Assembly (NCBI GenBank): GCA_016215155.1
Contig: JACRLQ010000055.1
Span: 1 to 34,883, forward strand
Reading direction: 5' to 3'
DNA: 34,883 nucleotides
DNA from: Nitrospirota bacterium
GTDB taxonomy: Bacteria; Nitrospirota; Thermodesulfovibrionia; Thermodesulfovibrionales; UBA6898
Shown here: in pieces, positions 12,757 to 27,956 of the stretch
Position numbering within the stretch: position 1 is the first letter of the stretch
Layout: each line of letters opens with the position of its first letter
Translations under genes and position numbers: made by a program
The notes under the pieces: generated by a model
The model's input: only the letters and a program-made list of their open reading frames with translations
Told to the model about the DNA's origin: nothing
Databases searched by the model: none

Positions 12757-13149
12757 TCAGAGTAATTTCACCGGAAGATGTTTTTTATAATATTCAAAAT
12801 CTCTATCGGTCGTAAAAATAATGAGATTTTCAATGTTTGCTGCGGCACAGATCAGAAAATCTATTGTCGACCCCTGAATTCCCTTCTTTCGGCATATATT
12901 GCTGAATTCAGCGGCTTTTATAAAATGTCTGCTTTCAAGGGGAATGTCTTCAAACGCGGAGAATATATCTTTTAATCTGTTGAATTGCGAGATATCGGAT
13001 ATCCCGGAGAGGAGTTCCTGCCGGATAGGCCCGATCATAACGACTTTGCCTTCTTTTATAAGTTCTGTAATTTTATCTGTTATTTTCAGGTCTGGAGACT
13101 TGTGTCTGAGGACTGCCGACCAGACACATGTGTCGACGAGGACTTTCAT
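12757..13149 (-). CDS. vapC: PIN-domain toxin, VapC type
   Basis: A 130-residue PIN-domain ribonuclease. The acidic active-site residues expected for VapC are present: D6 in LVDTCVW, E45 in RQELLSG, D97 in STIDFLICAAA, and D115 or D117 in TTDRDF. Relatives cleave tRNA or rRNA when freed from antitoxin. The start ATG overlaps the stop region of the upstream antitoxin gene by four bases (ATGA), the usual translational coupling of such pairs. It is located in the cytoplasm. The RNA target cannot be told from sequence. Confidence 0.9.
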   Translation of the reverse strand: MKVLVDTCVWSAVLRHKSPDLKITDKITELIKEGKVVMIGPIRQELLSGISDISQFNRLKDIFSAFEDIPLESRHFIKAAEFSNICRKKGIQGSTIDFLICAAANIENLIIFTTDRDFEYYKKHLPVKLL

Positions 13150-13401: not shown

Positions 13402-15270
13402 TCAGTTCTTTTTATACAAATCCCTGACAGTAGGAAAGAGGTTCATGTCCGTATGCGGCAAAAAAAGGGCCGACATATATTCGTCCATAAATCCCCGGGA
13501 GACGGAAAGCTCGACGTAGGTCATCCTGCCGGCTATTTCTTCAGCCTCTTTTCTCATCTTCGCCGACATAAGGCAGAGATAAGCCCCGGCGATAGAGGTA
13601 TTCCCGATAAAGGAGAACTTCTCCTTCGGCAGGTCCGGCAGCATGCCTATCATGATCGCCTTGTCGACATTGAGGTAGTTCCCGAAGCCGCCCGCGATAT
13701 AGATGCGGTCAACGATATCCAGCGACAGGCCTACCTCCTTCAGAAGCACCGACACCCCGGCATAGATAGCGGCCTTGGCGCGCATCACGTTTTCGATGTC
13801 GACCTCGGTCAGGACGATGTCCTTTATCTCTCCCCGGTAGAGGATATATTCCGGCCCTTCATCCCCTGATATGATCCTGTCCGTCTTTAAGTCTTTCATG
13901 AATTTACCGCGCTGGTCTATGACGCCTGAGAAAAACAACTCTGAGATGGCGTCGATCATGCCCGATCCGCATATGCCCGTGGGCACTGAGTCTCCTATGA
14001 CGCCAAGCGCCGGCTCGAACGTAACAGGGTCGATCTTTACGGACTCTACGGCGCCCTCCGTCGCCCGCATGCCATGCCTGATGCCGCTTCCTTCGAAGCA
14101 CGGCCCGGCCGAGCACGCGGCCGTCATGAGCCATTCGTTGTTGCCGACGGCTATCTCACCGTTAGTGCCGATATCCATAAAGAGCGAGATCTCGGGGTTT
14201 AAGTGAAGCCGGGAGGCCAGCACCCCTGCCACTATGTCCCCGCCGACGTAACTGCCGACGCACGGGACCGTATATACGGGCGCCTGGGGATGGATCTTTA
14301 TCCCCGCGTTGCCGGCCGACCAGACGGGATATGAGTTTAATGTCGGGACATAGGGCTCCTCCCTGATAGAGGATGGGTCGAACCCCCAGAAAAGCTGGGA
14401 CATCGTCGTATTGCCGGAGATTACGACAGAGTCTATCTCATTGCTGTTAATGTCATGCCTTTCCATCATCGGCGACAGGATAACGTTTATATCATTGACG
14501 ACAGTTGTCCTTAGTTCATCCAGTCCGCCGCCTTCTGTAGCGTGGACTATCCGCGTGATCACGTCGTCGCCGAAACGCATCTGGGAATTATAGGTCATCC
14601 CCACATCCACCAGTCTTCCGTCGGAGTAGTTCACGAGATAGACCACGACAGTTGTAGTGCCTATGTCAATTGCCAGCCCGTAACGGTCGATCTTGTCGGC
14701 AGGTACGATCGCCACCGCGCTCAGGTCTTCGGTATAATCGAGGTTGATCTTCCAGTTAAGTGTCCTCAGTGACGAGGCCAGGCCCAATAAAAACCCGTGA
14801 GGGAACCTCATGCCGGCGAGGCCTTTTTCTGAAAGCGCAAGTTTCAGCCTCTCCAGGTCGCTCGCATGGTCATCGATGGTAGGTGGCGTGATCTCAAGGT
14901 AGACCCTTCTTACGGCAGGCTCCAGTCCGGCCTCGACAGAGTGAAGAAAATTCCGGATGTCTTTTGACTTCGAGATCGCTATCTTGTCCCCTATGACAAG
15001 CTTCGACTCCTCCGGGATCTCTATCACCATGTCGCTTTCAGGGAATGTCATGCAGGCAAGCAGGATATTCGAGTCTATCTCTTCTTTTTTGAGTTTCCCC
15101 GAGGACTCGACCCTCGCGTCGCCTTCGAGCCTCCTTACGCGGCATTTGCCGCATAAGCCCTTGCCGCCGCAAGACGCGACAAGATATATCCCGTTGTCCT
15201 TGAGCGTCTTATAAAGACTCTCCTTCGGCGCCGCCTTTATCGTCTTTCCGTTTACGATCCTGATTTCCAT
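13402..15270 (-). CDS. DUF4445 [2Fe-2S]/ASKHA ATPase (RACE-type corrinoid activator)
   Basis: A 622-residue protein with an N-terminal plant-type [2Fe-2S] ferredoxin domain (C34, C40, C43 and C73 in CGGKGLCGKC...LLAC) and, after a linker, an actin-like ATPase domain of the DUF4445 family. The phosphate-1 loop AIDIGTTTVVVYLV is near 200-213, and FMDIGTNGE and IAGGFGN are further signatures. Characterised members reductively reactivate Co(II) corrinoid proteins of methyltransferase or Wood-Ljungdahl systems using ATP. No corrinoid protein or methyltransferase gene is present here, so its client lies elsewhere. Two close ATGs (15279 and 15270) are possible; neither has a strong ribosome site, and the second matches the usual protein start better. 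Confidence 0.88.
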   Translation of the reverse strand: MEIRIVNGKTIKAAPKESLYKTLKDNGIYLVASCGGKGLCGKCRVRRLEGDARVESSGKLKKEEIDSNILLACMTFPESDMVIEIPEESKLVIGDKIAISKSKDIRNFLHSVEAGLEPAVRRVYLEITPPTIDDHASDLERLKLALSEKGLAGMRFPHGFLLGLASSLRTLNWKINLDYTEDLSAVAIVPADKIDRYGLAIDIGTTTVVVYLVNYSDGRLVDVGMTYNSQMRFGDDVITRIVHATEGGGLDELRTTVVNDINVILSPMMERHDINSNEIDSVVISGNTTMSQLFWGFDPSSIREEPYVPTLNSYPVWSAGNAGIKIHPQAPVYTVPCVGSYVGGDIVAGVLASRLHLNPEISLFMDIGTNGEIAVGNNEWLMTAACSAGPCFEGSGIRHGMRATEGAVESVKIDPVTFEPALGVIGDSVPTGICGSGMIDAISELFFSGVIDQRGKFMKDLKTDRIISGDEGPEYILYRGEIKDIVLTEVDIENVMRAKAAIYAGVSVLLKEVGLSLDIVDRIYIAGGFGNYLNVDKAIMIGMLPDLPKEKFSFIGNTSIAGAYLCLMSAKMRKEAEEIAGRMTYVELSVSRGFMDEYMSALFLPHTDMNLFPTVRDLYKKN

Positions 15271-15384
15271 ATTTAACATTTTATTTGTTTCGGGCGGTCA
15301 AAAGCAAGACAGTTAGGGACGATAATTCAGGCGCGTGCCGGCACGGATTTACTTGAGGCTAAAAACATTGTAATATTACTTCAT

Positions 15385-15498
15385 ATGGAAACAGAACGCT
15401 TCTCGCAGAAAATCAGCTTCCTCCGGTCCGGCTGGTGGATAATCCATACCGCCGGGATAGCCGCCGTATATGCCCTGGGCAGCTTCCTCTGGAGGTGA
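15385..15498 (+). CDS. Tiny GWWxxH membrane peptide 1 (37 aa)
   Basis: Not a known family to me. The reading frame METERFSQKISFLRSGWWII continues HTAGIAAVYALGSFLWR and stops at 15498. A polar N terminus with a basic residue precedes one hydrophobic helix (about 17-35), so it should be a single-pass inner-membrane peptide. Its core FLRSGWWIIHTAGIA matches the next small frame (RYKPGWWLLHAAAVA) at the same relative place: GWW, two aliphatic residues, H, any residue, A. Such similarity between two adjacent short frames argues that both are translated. GGAGG inside its last codons serves as ribosome site for the next frame. It lacks an obvious ribosome site of its own. Confidence 0.5.
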   Translation: METERFSQKISFLRSGWWIIHTAGIAAVYALGSFLWR

Positions 15499-15499
15499 C

Positions 15500-15604
15500 A
15501 TGCTCAGGCACTTTATGAGATATAAACCAGGGTGGTGGCTCCTGCATGCAGCCGCGGTCGCCCTGACGTTTTATATGGGGCATGCAATCAGCTTCAGGTT
15601 TTGA
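15500..15604 (+). CDS. Tiny GWWxxH membrane peptide 2 (34 aa)
   Basis: A 34-residue frame, MLRHFMRYKPGWWLLHAAAV followed by ALTFYMGHAISFRF, starting one base after the stop of peptide 1, with GGAGG at 15491-15495. Basic residues (R3, R7, K9) lie before one hydrophobic helix (11-30), giving an N-in single-pass orientation. GWW at 11-13 and H16 match peptide 1; a further H28 sits at the far end of the helix. The conserved Trp pair and His inside the membrane suggest a cofactor, metal or protein contact rather than a mere anchor. It is the second gene of an apparent operon running to 17524. Confidence 0.55.
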   Translation: MLRHFMRYKPGWWLLHAAAVALTFYMGHAISFRF

Positions 15605-15612
15605 GCACGACC

Positions 15613-16053
15613 ATGAAGAAAAACAGCCTGCTCGCGGCATTGTTCCTCCTTGCGGCATCTGGACTGATGCTGCACTACAGGATCCATAACTTCATGGTCC
15701 CCGACAGACTCCTCCCGAGCGTTTTAGTCTTCGATGGATCAAAGTTTCTCGCCAGCCTTCTGCCTGCGATCGATGTCGTTGTGGTCACCTCGCTTTTCAT
15801 GTCCCGAAGGACCGCGGCGTACGGTTATCTCCTGAACGGCCTTATCGTGATCTACGGCACGCTCCTGATGGGGCACTACAGCATCGCGGAAATGGTGACA
15901 AGAGGGGTCCCGATTGAGAAGATGGTCCTGAAATCAACCATTCCCGACATCGGCATCGCCTGGGGCGATTTCTTCGTAGGCAAGGCGCTTTATGATCACT
16001 ATATGAAGCCGGTAAAGCTGTCCGCGCCTGAAGAAGAGTCTGCCAGGGAATGA
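15613..16053 (+). CDS. Multi-pass inner-membrane protein of the GWWxxH cassette
   Basis: Not recognised. It encodes 146 residues from the ATG at 15613, eight bases after peptide 2. Three clear hydrophobic segments are seen (about 4-20, 42-63 and 70-93), with a weaker one near 108-125. Possible functional residues include H21, H25, H94 (GHYS) and H129. The C terminus is charged (EEESARE) and probably cytoplasmic. The gene sits between the two tiny membrane peptides and an outer-membrane barrel gene with a His-rich start, suggesting an envelope complex, perhaps for metal or small-molecule handling. This role is inferred from context only. Confidence 0.7.
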   Translation: MKKNSLLAALFLLAASGLMLHYRIHNFMVPDRLLPSVLVFDGSKFLASLLPAIDVVVVTSLFMSRRTAAYGYLLNGLIVIYGTLLMGHYSIAEMVTRGVPIEKMVLKSTIPDIGIAWGDFFVGKALYDHYMKPVKLSAPEEESARE

Positions 16054-16140: not shown

Positions 16141-17190
16141 ATGAAAAAAATAATGTTGCCGCTTATTGCTCTTACAGTCGTATTGTTTCTTCAATCTGAG
16201 GCGGGGGCCCACCATGCCGCAGTGGGTATGGCCACCGGAGAGGCAGGGCCTATCAAGACGATCTCGGCATCCACGATGAAACAGGGCAGCTTCGGATTTG
16301 ATGTCCAGGCCGAATATATCGACCTCAAAAGGTTTTCCGATGCAGAGCTCCTGAGGTTCGCGGAGGCCGGCGCCGACACGCACAGCATCGATTCCGTCAG
16401 GCATCTGTTTTTAAGTTTTGGTTATGGGCTGACCAACGACCTTACCCTCGGATTTAAACTGCCTTACGTATCGCTCAGGAATATACGGGCCTCCCACGCG
16501 GAGACCCCTGACGAGGTGCATAACCACGGGAATTCAAACGGCATGGGCGACCTTTCGGTCGTCGCGCGTTACCGTTTCATCAGAAACGGTGATATGAGGT
16601 TTGAATCTTCGGTGATCGGGGGAATAAAGGTCCCGACAGGCAAAACAACAGTCAACGATTCAGAGGGCGAGCGGCTCGAGGCAGAGCACCAGCCGGGGTC
16701 AGGCTCCTGGGACCCTATAATAGGGCTGGCCGCGACAAAAAGAACCGGGGCCGTATCTCTGGATGCGAACATTCTCTATATTTTTTCTACAAAGGGTTCA
16801 CAGGAGACCGACCTTGGCGATACACTCAATTTAAATGCGGCCGTGTCCTGGCGGGCCGTTAAAAAAGACGTGGCTGTTGACCTTGTTTTAGAGGCCAACG
16901 GGCAGTGGAAACAGAAACTGAAGATCGGCGGGGTCGAGGACCCTAACAGCGGGGAGACGGTCCTGTTTTTGTCTCCCGGCCTCAGGCTGGGGTTTAAGAA
17001 TAATATTATGGCATATATATCCGCCGGGTTCCCGGTTGTCCAGGACCTAAACGGAATACAGACCAAGACCAGGACTATGTTTCATGTCGCTAGCCTTTGC
17101 AGGCGTGGCCTTTGGGGAAACCGGGGTCCCGGCCGGCCAAAAAACAAAATTTACGAAACACTTCACGGAGACATATTTTGCGATCACTGA
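16141..17190 (+). CDS. Outer-membrane transporter-like beta-barrel (C terminus altered)
   Basis: From the ATG at 16141, with GGAGAGG just upstream, it encodes 349 residues. Residues 1-23 form a signal peptide ending AGA, followed by HHAAVGMATGE. The mature part has alternating strand segments, LTNDLTLGFKLPYV, NSNGMGDLSVVARYRF and LFLSPGLRLGF, typical of the MetA-pathway/transporter-type outer-membrane barrels (PF13557-like). HASHAETPDEVHNHGNSNG-type His-rich loops suggest metal contact. After GIQTKTRTMFHV (near 305) the sequence no longer looks like a final beta strand: it becomes SLCRRGLWGNRGPGRPKNK, in a region that also codes for the next gene in another frame. The natural C-terminal strand is probably lost by a deletion or frameshift. 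Confidence 0.72.
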   Translation: MKKIMLPLIALTVVLFLQSEAGAHHAAVGMATGEAGPIKTISASTMKQGSFGFDVQAEYIDLKRFSDAELLRFAEAGADTHSIDSVRHLFLSFGYGLTNDLTLGFKLPYVSLRNIRASHAETPDEVHNHGNSNGMGDLSVVARYRFIRNGDMRFESSVIGGIKVPTGKTTVNDSEGERLEAEHQPGSGSWDPIIGLAATKRTGAVSLDANILYIFSTKGSQETDLGDTLNLNAAVSWRAVKKDVAVDLVLEANGQWKQKLKIGGVEDPNSGETVLFLSPGLRLGFKNNIMAYISAGFPVVQDLNGIQTKTRTMFHVASLCRRGLWGNRGPGRPKNKIYETLHGDIFCDH

Positions 17191-17524
17191 AAAGGCGGAG
17201 TTCAGCATCGAGGTCCTCCCTGATGAAAAAGAATACAGGATCGGGAAAAATGTAATCGGCATCGTTGTCCATGACAAGCGTGACCAGGACGTGGAGGGGG
17301 CTGAGATCAATATCACTGACGACAAAAGCCGAAAGTTCCCTGTCAAAGACAAGGGCGACGGACTTTATACCGTTTCAGACCTGGATATTAAAAGAGAAGG
17401 GCACTGGAAACTTGTAATCCGGATTAATAAAAAGTCGCTCTCTGATGAGGCGGTCTTTGTCTTCCCTCCAGTGTCGAAAAAGTTCCTTCCCCCCGGCAGC
17501 TACGATCCGGAAGGACTGAAGTGA
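17084..17524 (+). CDS. FixH/YtkA-like secreted beta-domain protein (N terminus possibly truncated)
   Basis: The frame encodes 146 residues. Residues about 30-135 read as an Ig-like beta domain: FSIEVLPDEKEYRIGKNVIG, VVHDKRDQDVEGAEINI, KDKGDGLYTVSDLDI, GHWKLVIRI, a pattern of YtkA/FixH-like periplasmic domains often found beside metal-transport genes. The first residues MSLAFAGVAFGETG look like the second half of a signal peptide, without the basic start. The frame is closed by a stop 36 bases upstream. The 107-base overlap with the barrel gene is far longer than a normal operon overlap. A deletion that joined the end of the barrel gene to the signal peptide region is the simplest explanation; a sequencing error is possible. 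Confidence 0.65.
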   Translation: MSLAFAGVAFGETGVPAGQKTKFTKHFTETYFAITEKAEFSIEVLPDEKEYRIGKNVIGIVVHDKRDQDVEGAEINITDDKSRKFPVKDKGDGLYTVSDLDIKREGHWKLVIRINKKSLSDEAVFVFPPVSKKFLPPGSYDPEGLK

Positions 17525-23826: not shown

Positions 23827-24870
23827 ATGATATTCAGGATCATTAAAAAAGAGGAACTTGAGAAACTTTTCGAACTGCTTGCCTCCGGCAGCCGGGTGAT
23901 AGGTCCTGTCGAGACCGGGCATGACCGGAATTCTGACCCCATATATGAATTCAGCGAGGTCTCGAATTTCAGCGAAATCAGGCTCGATCATACCATGACA
24001 AAACTGCCTGCAAAAAAATATTTCCTGCCCTATAAAGAAGACCTTGCAGCCTTCCATATGAAGGGCAGGGACTGGGACAAGAGCGTGGACTACCACTGTG
24101 ACAGTCCGTCCGTATTTTTCGGGCTCCACGCCTGCGACATAAACGCGTTCAACAGGCTCGACAAGGTCCTGCTTGGAAGCAGCTATCCCATGCCCTATTA
24201 CGCGGCAAAAAGAAAAAATATGTTTATAGTAGGGGTCGATTGTGTACCAGGGCCATACTGTTTCTGCCGTTCGATGGGGGCGGACACCGCCCTGCAAGGT
24301 TTTGACCTGTTCGTCACCGACCTGGGGAAAACCTATTTCATCGAGATACTTTCCGACACCGCCTTTAATTTCCTTAAACGGATAAAAACCTCCGAGCCGG
24401 TGGAGGCGGACCATGTCAGATACATGGATATCGTATCCAAAAAGAATATGAAGTTTGAGGCGCATGTCGATACGACCGACCTGACGAAGATCCTCGATAT
24501 GGAATTCCAGTCGGACATATGGAAATACTGGGGAGACAAATGTCTCGCTTGCGGAACATGCGCGAACGTCTGCCCTACCTGCTACTGTTACAGCGTAGAG
24601 GAGACGGTCTCTCTGGACCTCCAGAGCGCAAAAAAGACCAGACAGCTGTATTCCTGCAATATCATTGATTTTGCCGAGGTCTCGGGCGGACATAACTTCA
24701 GGCCCGAAAGACAGACCCGCCTTAAATACCGCTACTATCACAAGCACCGGGGCTTTGTCGAGGCATACGAAGACTCACTATGCGTGGGTTGCGGCCGTTG
24801 CGGTGAGGCCTGTCTTGCCGATATAACCGTGCCGAAGGTTATATCGTCGGTGCGCGGAGGGGCGGTCTGA
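23827..24870 (+). CDS. hydB: Sulfhydrogenase subunit beta, 4Fe-4S protein
   Basis: A 347-residue cytoplasmic electron-transfer subunit of a group 3b [NiFe] hydrogenase. Two 4Fe-4S ferredoxin motifs lie in the C-terminal third: CLACGTCANVCPTC (C239, C242, C245, C249) and CVGCGRCGEAC (from C319). The N-terminal region with GLHACDINAFNRLD and CVPGPYCFCRSMG is conserved in HydB/AsrA-like proteins and may hold further ligands. In Pyrococcus furiosus the homologue carries electrons between the flavin subunit and the NiFe catalytic pair. The gene is the first of a tight four-gene set; its stop lies one base before the hydG start. No strong ribosome site precedes the ATG. Confidence 0.93.
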   Translation: MIFRIIKKEELEKLFELLASGSRVIGPVETGHDRNSDPIYEFSEVSNFSEIRLDHTMTKLPAKKYFLPYKEDLAAFHMKGRDWDKSVDYHCDSPSVFFGLHACDINAFNRLDKVLLGSSYPMPYYAAKRKNMFIVGVDCVPGPYCFCRSMGADTALQGFDLFVTDLGKTYFIEILSDTAFNFLKRIKTSEPVEADHVRYMDIVSKKNMKFEAHVDTTDLTKILDMEFQSDIWKYWGDKCLACGTCANVCPTCYCYSVEETVSLDLQSAKKTRQLYSCNIIDFAEVSGGHNFRPERQTRLKYRYYHKHRGFVEAYEDSLCVGCGRCGEACLADITVPKVISSVRGGAV

Positions 24871-24871
24871 T

Positions 24872-25771
24872 ATGGAGACCAGGCTTGCTTATACCCCGAT
24901 ATCCGGAGAAAGGTCACACCGGAAGACCGACCTGGCCGCCTTTGAGTCGTCCTATAAGGCGGAGATAACGAGCATTCACAGGCTTACGGACCACGAGAAC
25001 CTCTACAGGATACAGATCGTCGACCAGCCGGAGCGTGAACGTTTTGATTTCATGCCCGGACAGTTTCTCATGCTCGAACTCCCGGGTATCGGTGAGGCCC
25101 CCTTTTCGATCTCATCCTCCCCCTCCAGAAAAGGGGATGTTGAGCTCTGTATACGAAAGGCGGGCAGCCTGACGAATTTCATGGCAAAGCTGGAGCGCGG
25201 AACATATGTGGGCATAAGGGGCCCTTTCGGCGCCGGTTTCCCCATGGAAAAGATGTATGGACAGAATGTCCTCCTGATTGCGGGGGGGCTGGGGCTGGCT
25301 GCGCTCCGGTCGCCGATATCATATGTGCAGGAAAACAGGAACCGCTTTAATAGTGTTGATATCATCTACGGCGCGAAAGTCCCTTCACAGCTGCTTTTTA
25401 CATACCAGTATGACATGTGGAGGGCGGATGATATCAGGCTCAGTATCATCGTCGAGAAGGCGGAGGCGTCATGGACCGGGAAAACAGGGCTTATCACAAA
25501 GGCCCTGGAAGACATATTCGCCATAAGCCGGGAGGAGTTTTTCCAGGACACCTATGCCATCGTCTGCGGTCCGCCGGTGATGTTCAAGTTCGTCTGCAAT
25601 ATGCTGAGGCAAAGAGACGTCCCTATGCAGAAGATGTTCGTTTCGCTTGAAAGGCGCATGCACTGCGGCATGGGGAAGTGCTGCCGCTGCAATGTGGGTT
25701 CAACATATACCTGTCTGAGCGGCCCGGTCTTTGACTACTGGACCGTGATGAACCTCAAGGAGGCGATATAA
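24872..25771 (+). CDS. hydG: Sulfhydrogenase subunit gamma, FAD/NAD(P)-binding
   Basis: A 299-residue flavoprotein of the ferredoxin-NADP reductase superfamily that exchanges electrons with NAD(P)H. The FAD-binding segment is APFSISSSPS (76-85), the nucleotide-binding loop is LLIAGGLGLAALRS (134-147) and CGPPVMFKF (232-240) closes the NAD(P) site. The C terminus carries the cysteine group MHCGMGKCCRCNVGSTYTC (C265, C270, C273, C281) for a [2Fe-2S] cluster, as in dihydroorotate dehydrogenase electron-transfer subunits. The start is one base after the hydB stop and its own stop shares one base with hydD, showing translational coupling. Confidence 0.93.
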   Translation: METRLAYTPISGERSHRKTDLAAFESSYKAEITSIHRLTDHENLYRIQIVDQPERERFDFMPGQFLMLELPGIGEAPFSISSSPSRKGDVELCIRKAGSLTNFMAKLERGTYVGIRGPFGAGFPMEKMYGQNVLLIAGGLGLAALRSPISYVQENRNRFNSVDIIYGAKVPSQLLFTYQYDMWRADDIRLSIIVEKAEASWTGKTGLITKALEDIFAISREEFFQDTYAIVCGPPVMFKFVCNMLRQRDVPMQKMFVSLERRMHCGMGKCCRCNVGSTYTCLSGPVFDYWTVMNLKEAI

Positions 25772-26571
25772 TGGCCGCCGCGCGAAGCTTCCTTGGAGTG
25801 CCTGTATATAAGCCGAGGGTCGCCTTCTTTGAGCTTTCTTCCTGTGAGGGCTGCCAGCTTCAGCTTCTGAACAATGAAGATACCCTGCCTGACTTCCTCT
25901 CCCTGGTGGAGGTGGTGAATTTCCGTGAGGCCATGACCGGCGGCACTGATGACTATGAGATCGCCTTTGTCGAGGGCAGTGTCACACGCGGGGATGAGAT
26001 CGAAAGGCTCAGGGAGGTCCGCGGAAAGGCGAAGACCCTTGTCGCGCTTGGGTCATGCGCCTGTTTCGGCGGTGTAAATCAGCTTAAAAACAGGTTCGAT
26101 CCCGACTGGGTAAAAAAAGAGGTCTATGGAGACCGCCAGGTCGAGTCTGAACGCGCAAAACCGCTTGAGGACATTGTAACGGTTGACCTCCGCATTTTAG
26201 GGTGCCCCATAAACAAGAAAGAGGTGGAAGGGATCATGGTCAATCTGGCGATAGGCAAGGAGATCAAGACGCCTAAGTACCCAGTCTGCATGGAATGCAA
26301 GGCAAACGGCAATACATGCCTGTTCGACCTCGGGGAACCCTGCCTCGGCCCGATAACCCGTGCAGGCTGTAATTCGTGCTGTCCTAACGGCAGGGCGGGA
26401 TGCTGGGGCTGCAGGGGGCCCGCGGAGGACGGCAATCTTGCCCAGATGACAGTTATAATGGAAAGGTACGGTTTTTCGAAGGAGACGATAATCGACCGGC
26501 TGGAATGCTTTGGCGGATTTTCTGATTACGCTTCTCAACTGAGAACTATTAAATTAAAAAATTCCTCCTGA
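25771..26571 (+). CDS. hydD: Sulfhydrogenase subunit delta, [NiFe] hydrogenase small subunit
   Basis: A 266-residue small subunit with cysteine ligands for three Fe-S clusters. The proximal cluster set is SCEGCQLQ (C25, C28), GSCACFGG (C96) and LGCP. The C-terminal part (CMECKANGNTC, EPCLGP, GCNSCCPNGRAGCWGCRGP) supplies the medial and distal clusters. There is no twin-arginine signal peptide, so the enzyme is cytoplasmic, as expected for group 3b. The ATG overlaps the hydG stop (TAATG). The residues and order correspond to the Pyrococcus sulfhydrogenase delta subunit. Confidence 0.93.
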   Translation: MAAARSFLGVPVYKPRVAFFELSSCEGCQLQLLNNEDTLPDFLSLVEVVNFREAMTGGTDDYEIAFVEGSVTRGDEIERLREVRGKAKTLVALGSCACFGGVNQLKNRFDPDWVKKEVYGDRQVESERAKPLEDIVTVDLRILGCPINKKEVEGIMVNLAIGKEIKTPKYPVCMECKANGNTCLFDLGEPCLGPITRAGCNSCCPNGRAGCWGCRGPAEDGNLAQMTVIMERYGFSKETIIDRLECFGGFSDYASQLRTIKLKNSS

Positions 26572-26681
26572 CCCTACTTTGGCACCAACAGTAGGCGCTT
26601 TAAGCGAAGAGGGGATGGGGAGATTTCTGGCGGATATACTTAATGTTTCGACACTGATGCTTAGGAGCAGACGATAACCCG

Positions 26682-27956
26682 ATGAAAATAAATTGCGATG
26701 TAAATGTCCATCACCTCACAAGGGTCGAGGGGCACGGAAATATCAGGATTACGATCAGGGACGGAAAGCTGATCGAGGCCTCCTGGGAGGTGGTCGAGAC
26801 GCCCCGTTTTTTTGAGGCGATCCTTGTCGGCAAGAAGTGGGACAACGCGCCATGGATATGCGGCCGTATCTGCGGCATATGCTCCATCGGTCATACCCTT
26901 GCGAGCATCCGCGCCATTGAGCAGGCCTTCGGCATCGTGCCTTCCAGGCAGACCCAAAGGCTCCGCCTGCTTCTAAAACATATGGAGACCCTGCAAAGCC
27001 ATATACTCCACCTTTATTTTCTGGCAGCGCCGGACTTCCTTAATGAGGGCAGTGTATTCCCGCTCATCGGGTCGCATCCCGACGTCGTCCTCCGGGCCAT
27101 GAGGCTGAAAAAACTTGCCAATGATCTCTGCGACCTCATAGGAGGAAGACGGCTCCACCCCACGACCACCGTAGTCGGAGGTTTTACTATGCTGCCCGAC
27201 AAAAAAATACTGGCCGGGTTTAAGGAAAGGCTGAGCGCCGCTGTGGATGACCTTATGGAAACCGCGCGGCTGTTTAAGACGTTTCAGATACCGGATTTCA
27301 GCAGGGAGACCGAATTTGTATCGCTTAAGGGGGTGGATGCGTATCCGTTTATCGGGGGAGATCTGATGTCATCCGACGGCGTTTTGAAAAATGAATCTCA
27401 GTACAGGCAGATGACCAATGAATATACCGTCCCGCAATCTACATCGAAGTGGTCGAGGCTCTCACGCGGTTCGTTCGCGGTCGGAGCGCTGGCGAGACTG
27501 AATAATAACTTCGGATTGCTCCATCCCATGGCCCGGGACATCGCCTCGGATTTCGGACTGGGACCCGTCAGCCATAACCCATTCATGAATAACATCGCGC
27601 AGCTGGTTGAAGCCTTCCATGTCGCGGGCGAATCCATATCCCTGATAGATGAACTGATCGATACCTGCTGGGAGGCCCCAAGGCAGCCCGTAGCCCCCAG
27701 AGAGGGCCGCGGGGTCGGGGCGGTCGAGGTCCCAAGGGGAACGCTGTACCATTGCTATGATTTCGACGAAACCGGACATATCATAAAATGTGACTGCGTA
27801 ATTCCGACAGGCCAGAACCATGCCAACATCCAGCATGACCTAAGCGCGCTTTCCGCACGCTATGCCTCCGAGGGGATGAAAGACAGAGACCTTGAGCTCC
27901 TGGCGGAGATGCTTGTGAGGTCCTATGACCCCTGCATCTCCTGTTCCGTCCATTGA
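26682..27956 (+). CDS. hydA: Sulfhydrogenase subunit alpha, [NiFe] large subunit without C-terminal extension
   Basis: The 424-residue catalytic subunit carries the Ni-Fe site. The first metal motif is RICGICSIGH (C64, C67, H71) and the second is DPCISCSVH (C418, C421). The protein stops immediately after H424. Related subunits usually continue past this His with a short peptide that a specific protease removes once nickel is inserted. Group 3b enzymes couple H2 oxidation or evolution to NAD(P), and some reduce polysulfide to H2S. The ATG at 26682 lies 110 bases after hydD, an unusually wide gap in this operon; GGAG sits about 16 bases before it. No accessory hyp genes are in the window. truA follows 20 bases later. 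Confidence 0.93.
   Translation: MKINCDVNVHHLTRVEGHGNIRITIRDGKLIEASWEVVETPRFFEAILVGKKWDNAPWICGRICGICSIGHTLASIRAIEQAFGIVPSRQTQRLRLLLKHMETLQSHILHLYFLAAPDFLNEGSVFPLIGSHPDVVLRAMRLKKLANDLCDLIGGRRLHPTTTVVGGFTMLPDKKILAGFKERLSAAVDDLMETARLFKTFQIPDFSRETEFVSLKGVDAYPFIGGDLMSSDGVLKNESQYRQMTNEYTVPQSTSKWSRLSRGSFAVGALARLNNNFGLLHPMARDIASDFGLGPVSHNPFMNNIAQLVEAFHVAGESISLIDELIDTCWEAPRQPVAPREGRGVGAVEVPRGTLYHCYDFDETGHIIKCDCVIPTGQNHANIQHDLSALSARYASEGMKDRDLELLAEMLVRSYDPCISCSVH

Follow-up and report, generated by a model that had tools for sequence, protein, structure and literature searches.

A cytochrome b559-like pair of membrane peptides encoded beside a four-helix membrane protein in Nitrospirota and other bacteria

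Do two adjacent reading frames of 37 and 34 codons in a Nitrospirota contig encode a pair of membrane proteins, and if so, of what kind? The first-pass annotation of the window—the whole stretch of 34,883 nucleotides that was analysed—had read them as paired paralogous micro-proteins forming a specific complex, perhaps binding a metal or a cofactor. We call the two products alpha and beta, and together with the following gene, gamma, they make up the cassette described here. The features of the locus are as follows.

13402-15279, minus strand: AcsV-like corrinoid activation/regeneration protein (E 3.5e-198)
15385..15498, plus strand: alpha peptide, 37 aa, predicted single N-in membrane helix, WWxxH, with the invariant His21 as proposed heme ligand
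15491..15498, plus strand: Shine-Dalgarno-like GGAGGTGA of beta, ahead of the beta ATG and overlapping the end of alpha
15500..15604, plus strand: beta peptide, 34 aa, predicted single N-in membrane helix, GWWxLH, with the invariant His16 as proposed second heme ligand
15613..16053, plus strand: gamma, 146 aa, four-helix membrane protein, ATG at 15613, with conserved H21, H25, N75, G76, G82, M86 and, in most sequences, H88
16141..17190, plus strand: outer-membrane barrel-type ORF, 349 aa (Phenol_MetA_deg, E 3.4e-14)
17084..17524, plus strand: YtkA-like periplasmic protein, a relative of which adjoins the cassette in locus L089 and which is absent from most other loci

Alpha translates as METERFSQKISFLRSGWWIIHTAGIAAVYALGSFLWR and beta as MLRHFMRYKPGWWLLHAAAVALTFYMGHAISFRF, each followed by a stop codon, and the single base between them, as annotated, is part of a general pattern: the alpha stop and the beta start are at most 4 nt apart in 31 of 33 loci. 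Gamma starts 8 bp 3′ of beta, and the alpha-beta-gamma run is divergent from the AcsV-like gene. The barrel-type ORF lies 88 bp downstream of gamma, and its Phenol_MetA_deg match agrees with the outer-membrane barrel that had been read there. It is possibly co-transcribed with the cassette in the window, and it is not a constant member of the cassette across loci. About 100 bp of this ORF overlap the beginning of the YtkA-like ORF, and the C-terminal residues of the former are unlike a barrel end; a frame change or an assembly indel is possible within 16141-17524. Elsewhere in the window, we observed a four-gene operon of the [NiFe] hydrogenase/sulfhydrogenase type with HydB/G/D/A-like subunits (23827-27956) and a VapC-family toxin-like PIN protein on the minus strand (12757-13149; NF047959, E 1e-26).

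Are the two short frames genes? Among 61 relatives, gamma is present in 10, and both peptides are encoded directly upstream of it in all 10. Residues W17, W18, H21, and G32 are invariant in 25 alpha sequences, as are G11, W12, W13, H16, and G27 in 25 beta sequences; in a broader set, 40/40 alphas and 40/40 betas have the histidine and, numbered from it, Trp(-4) and Gly(+11). The mean pairwise pS values of 0.78 for alpha and 0.82 for beta (36 sequences each) are near saturation, and the corresponding pN values are 0.29 and 0.25. Because synonymous differences are nearly saturated and nonsynonymous ones are few, alpha and beta are genes under strong purifying selection, and not chance frames. 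The motif is thus kept in relatives and the codon-level constraint is strong, the two points on which the first-pass annotation had made its proposal depend. Each peptide combines a basic N-terminal tail, WWxxH, and one membrane helix, as that annotation had described, and the more detailed motif that it gave needs revision: GWW is not a constant part, since the position ahead of the Trp pair varies in alpha and a few betas carry WF or WY, and the small residue placed two positions after the histidine, an alanine, fails across the family. The conserved frame is instead W(-4), H(0), an aromatic residue or Leu at +8, and G(+11).

Alpha and beta are related to each other (hhalign probability 97.7) and always co-occur, as expected of the paralogous pair that had been proposed. 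Within the phylum, the beta profile matches 26 of 395 genomes, nearly all with a nearby alpha; a weak match without the pair, in one genome (G358), is probably due to chance. With gamma as the query, 84,980 species genomes yielded 38 loci, assigned by their record titles to Nitrospirota/Thermodesulfovibrionia, Deltaproteobacteria, Thermodesulfobacteriaceae including Caldimicrobium, Rokuibacteriota, Firestonebacteria, and others. Every intact gamma locus carries alpha and beta, and in the two mid-contig loci that lack them (L098 and L107), gamma is truncated or decayed. The lineages with the cassette are Nitrospirota, Thermodesulfobacteriota, one Rokuibacteriota MAG, Firestonebacteria, and others. 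In four further groups, the cassette was found in 17/297 (a few weak matches included), 2/2, 10/45, and 4/12 genomes, and the distribution is patchy. A larger conserved operon was ruled out, as no fourth gene has a constant position near the cassette. In the Caldimicrobium MAG that holds locus L101 (G403), a second alpha-like match to PF00283 at C43:3554-3610 scores equally with the L101 copy, and a second copy of the cassette is possible there.

Which known proteins do the peptides resemble? We searched 177,635 distinct PDB sequences with the peptide profiles, listing matches with E≤10. All of the matches of six profiles (A1, A2, A4, A5, A6, and A9) are subunits of cytochrome b559, PsbE or PsbF; for the most diverse beta profile, 26 of 26 matches are PsbF, with a best E of 0.0081. 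One of the matched chains, 7ymi_F, carries a PsbY label and is a PsbF homologue. In contrast, a control profile with the columns of the post-His core permuted, which preserves the composition, WWxxH, and the tails, had zero PDB matches. Consistently, PF00283 is the top Pfam family for the deep-branching alphas (E 0.0014, 0.0029, 0.0056, 0.014, 0.017, and 0.027), and for the two sequences tried, the sole NCBIfam match is TIGR01333, cyt_b559_beta (E 0.0039 and 0.019). In whole-genome searches with PF00283, the alpha locus ranks first in 4 of 9 genomes. Against a PsbE/F profile, hhalign gives 93.9 for alpha and 88.4 for beta, as compared to 66.5 for PsbE against PsbF, and the observed scores exceed column shuffles in 200/200 cases for alpha and 197/200 for beta.

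The peptides and b559 share an ungapped register: W at -4/-3, H at 0, [IV] at +4, [FY] at +8, and G at +11. The beta of locus L134, for example, carries HIITIPFMFWLG, as compared to HSITIPALFIAG in PsbE. Basic residues precede the helix in both systems; Arg at -5 (FRWW) occurs in 4 of the 40 tabulated alphas, all deep-branching, and the others have Lys or Arg at -7 to -9. Only a few betas carry the Pro found at +5 in b559. The heme propionates of b559 are touched by an Arg at -5 in each of its subunits (Arg18/Arg19), and the redox potential is tuned by I27 of the alpha subunit (+4) and F32 of the beta subunit (+8) (PMC4709441). The likeness extends to the overall plan, with two short, single-helix, N-in proteins encoded by adjacent genes and one His per subunit near the cytoplasmic side.

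This signal belongs to the family: the window alpha matches b559 only at E 0.19, and the window beta is without a match. Because PF00283 gives only noise-level matches in the genome of the window and its close relatives, the likeness must be judged family-wide. Moreover, the curated cut-offs are missed even by the best sequences, with 18.4 bits against the 30 of PF00283 and 16.7 against the 61.15 of TIGR01333, and ten genomes tested have no match to the type II reaction-centre family PF00124, for which a cyanobacterial control was positive. For these reasons, we describe the cassette peptides, which are known here from sequence, as b559-like and not as members of the b559 family. They also differ from b559 in that alpha lacks the long lumenal tail of PsbE, and their partner is the four-helix gamma, sometimes fused to alpha, instead of D1/D2. 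Bacterial light-harvesting alpha/beta antenna peptides were rejected as relatives, as there was no antenna Pfam match, and no Photo_RC match in the ten genomes.

Could the likeness have arisen by convergence, in an unrelated small b-type cytochrome pair with bis-His ligation and the same W..H..G geometry, similar in function and separate in ancestry? The comparable stretch is only about 20 residues, all of the E-values are modest, and the partner is wholly different. However, the likeness goes beyond the shared W, W, and H: with these three kept in place, a score as high as the observed one arose in 0/100 column shuffles for alpha and 3/100 for beta, and the permuted profile matches nothing. 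The paired, adjacent genes are also common to both systems. Furthermore, PsbE and PsbF belong to one Pfam family, and they are equally dissimilar to each other. With reference sequences identical to the PDB chains, they find each other only at E 0.045–0.13 or worse, the lowest value being that of PsbF against PsbE. We regard convergence as rather unlikely, and favour a common ancestry with b559, which is unproven, with reasonable confidence.

To our knowledge, cytochrome b559 is otherwise found only in the water-splitting photosystem of plants and cyanobacteria. In the open-access literature that we surveyed, we found no account of b559 homologues outside oxygenic phototrophs and no prior description of the cassette. 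A 2024 survey of small membrane proteins mentions b559 beta in cyanobacteria only, and extra photosystem II subunits of the b559 kind are described as absent from anoxygenic type II reaction centres (PMC4773611).

How are the three products arranged? In nine loci (L113, L114, L118, L132, L134, L135, L136, L138, and L139), gamma and alpha are fused, with alpha as the C-terminal fifth helix and a separate beta gene downstream, and the same fusion is probably present in L115, L121, and L137. The genes are separate and in the order gamma, alpha, beta in four Firestonebacteria loci (L105, L130, L131, and L133). The fusion found in several genomes makes it very probable that the three products belong to one complex, and very likely that alpha is bound to gamma in it. 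The N-terminal tail is more basic than the C-terminal tail in 40/40 alphas and 38/40 betas, the other two betas being tied. Given the four helices of gamma and its basic loop at residues 63–67, the fusion also fits a cytoplasmic N-terminus of alpha. From the charge bias and the fusion, we infer that alpha and beta are both N-in. With this topology, the two histidines would each be some five residues deep in the membrane, counted from the cytoplasmic face, and would belong to parallel helices, as one shared heme requires. On the strength of these sequence features—an invariant membrane histidine in each peptide, at the same depth, and the match to the b559 heterodimer—bis-His heme binding by alpha and beta is highly probable. 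The cofactor-binding complex that the first-pass annotation had put forward is supported to this extent, and the resemblance to cytochrome b559, the third subunit, the alpha-gamma fusions, and the spread across phyla go beyond it.

Gamma is the multi-pass membrane protein that had been recognised downstream of the peptides. AlphaFold2 models it with helices 3–24, 42–62, 68–97, and 101–131 and a small hairpin at 28–40 (pLDDT 91). All of 47 sequences have H21, H25, N75, G76, G82, and M86, and 44 of them have H88. Because of the topology, the His residues would lie toward the periplasmic side, where they are candidates for binding a second heme, a metal, or a substrate. No known fold could be assigned to gamma: Foldseek returned no match at E≤0.001, VIA-align returned generic four-helix bundles only, and the search against PDB sequences gave only short CD3-zeta helix look-alikes. 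Among the Pfam matches of 34 gammas, no b561 model is listed, and only weak matches to MauE and DUF4405 occur. The MauE/DoxD-like family (PF07291) also consists of four-helix proteins and is weakly matched by 17 of the 34, with a best E of 0.00058; however, the window gamma scores 13.5 bits against a gathering threshold of 27, no mau genes were seen, and the invariant pattern of HxxxH, NG, and MxH is peculiar to the gamma family. This distant likeness weakly hints at a redox or quinone role.

What do the neighbouring genes suggest? Of 74 loci, 19 (some 13 of them independent) have a gene for SOD, superoxide reductase, rubrerythrin/ferritin, or a flavodiiron protein on the cassette strand and no more than about 3 kb away, as compared to only 2 loci for the farther flanks, an excess that is overstated because the seeds for the neighbour count came from the same loci. 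The window has no oxygen-defence neighbour. In some loci, such as L164 and L082, c-type cytochrome genes are near the cassette. In locus L103 (4645-6881), the cassette lies between a molybdopterin oxidoreductase gene, immediately upstream, and, immediately downstream, the gene of a desulfoferrodoxin-like protein that has an apparent Tat-type signal. The pattern suggests a setting of oxygen or superoxide defence in many lineages. It is in line with proposals that b559, which is essential to photosystem II while its exact function is still unclear, acts as a quinol oxidase and a superoxide oxidase/reductase (PMC4709441), and also with superoxide oxidase (SOO, CybB, of the cytochrome b561 type), a four-helix superoxide:quinone oxidoreductase (PMC11869295). 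Like SOO, the cassette would be a minimal inner-membrane helical bundle that moves electrons between a periplasmic site and the cytoplasmic face, in many loci in an oxygen-defence setting. However, SOO is one four-helix chain with two hemes of its own, while the proposed heme site of the cassette is on two extra helices. A role in oxygen or superoxide chemistry specifically is a tentative suggestion.

In a second account, the histidines of alpha and beta would bind a Cu, Zn, or Fe ion and the HxxxH/MxH residues of gamma would form a metal site for transport or loading. The His pair of gamma at i, i+4 and M86-x-H88 do form a metal-like pattern, CopC and what looks like a CopD-like membrane protein are encoded near the L089 cassette, and YtkA-like proteins are encoded near both this cassette and that of the window. 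However, the single His with its flanking Trp and the Gly at +11 match the heme-binding b559 and no metal-transport motif, and copper-type neighbours occur in few loci, with redox-defence genes elsewhere. We consider metal handling improbable. It is very improbable that the peptides are CydX-like stability factors that serve gamma in structure or assembly, with the conserved His used for packing and not for a cofactor: small single-helix subunits do often stabilise bigger membrane proteins, and some genomes have alpha and gamma in one chain, but a scaffold would need no such His in both peptides, and here it is kept in every tabulated sequence of both, across phyla, at matching depth and in the b559 register.

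The reading that we consider probable is a b559-like alpha-beta heme protein outside photosynthesis, docked on gamma and acting as a single-electron carrier across the inner membrane. In this mechanism, the alpha and beta helices would run in parallel from cytoplasmic N-termini, and H21 of alpha and H16 of beta would be the two ligands of one heme b close to the cytoplasmic face, with the basic residues just ahead of the helices holding its propionates. The dimer would dock on gamma, whose HxxxH (H21 and H25), M86, and H88 would form a second site near the periplasmic face. The cassette could then serve as a one-electron route through the membrane, linking the quinone pool or the cytoplasm with a periplasmic partner. 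Quinone and superoxide or oxygen are speculative as its substrates.

A b559-like heterodimer in non-photosynthetic bacteria would allow the chemistry of b559 to be tested in a simpler setting, without a photosystem, and would add to several uncultured phyla a minimal membrane cytochrome, partly small enough to escape gene callers. The cassette would also provide a candidate source for a photosystem II subunit. It is conceivable, though we hold this doubtfully, that anaerobes employ a widespread two-helix cytochrome, unconnected with photosynthesis, together with a four-helix partner for defence against oxygen or superoxide, and that b559 descends from it or has a common ancestor with it. If so, photosystem II would have taken over a protective redox module that already existed, and the disputed activities of b559, as a quinol oxidase and on superoxide, would go back to its original function.
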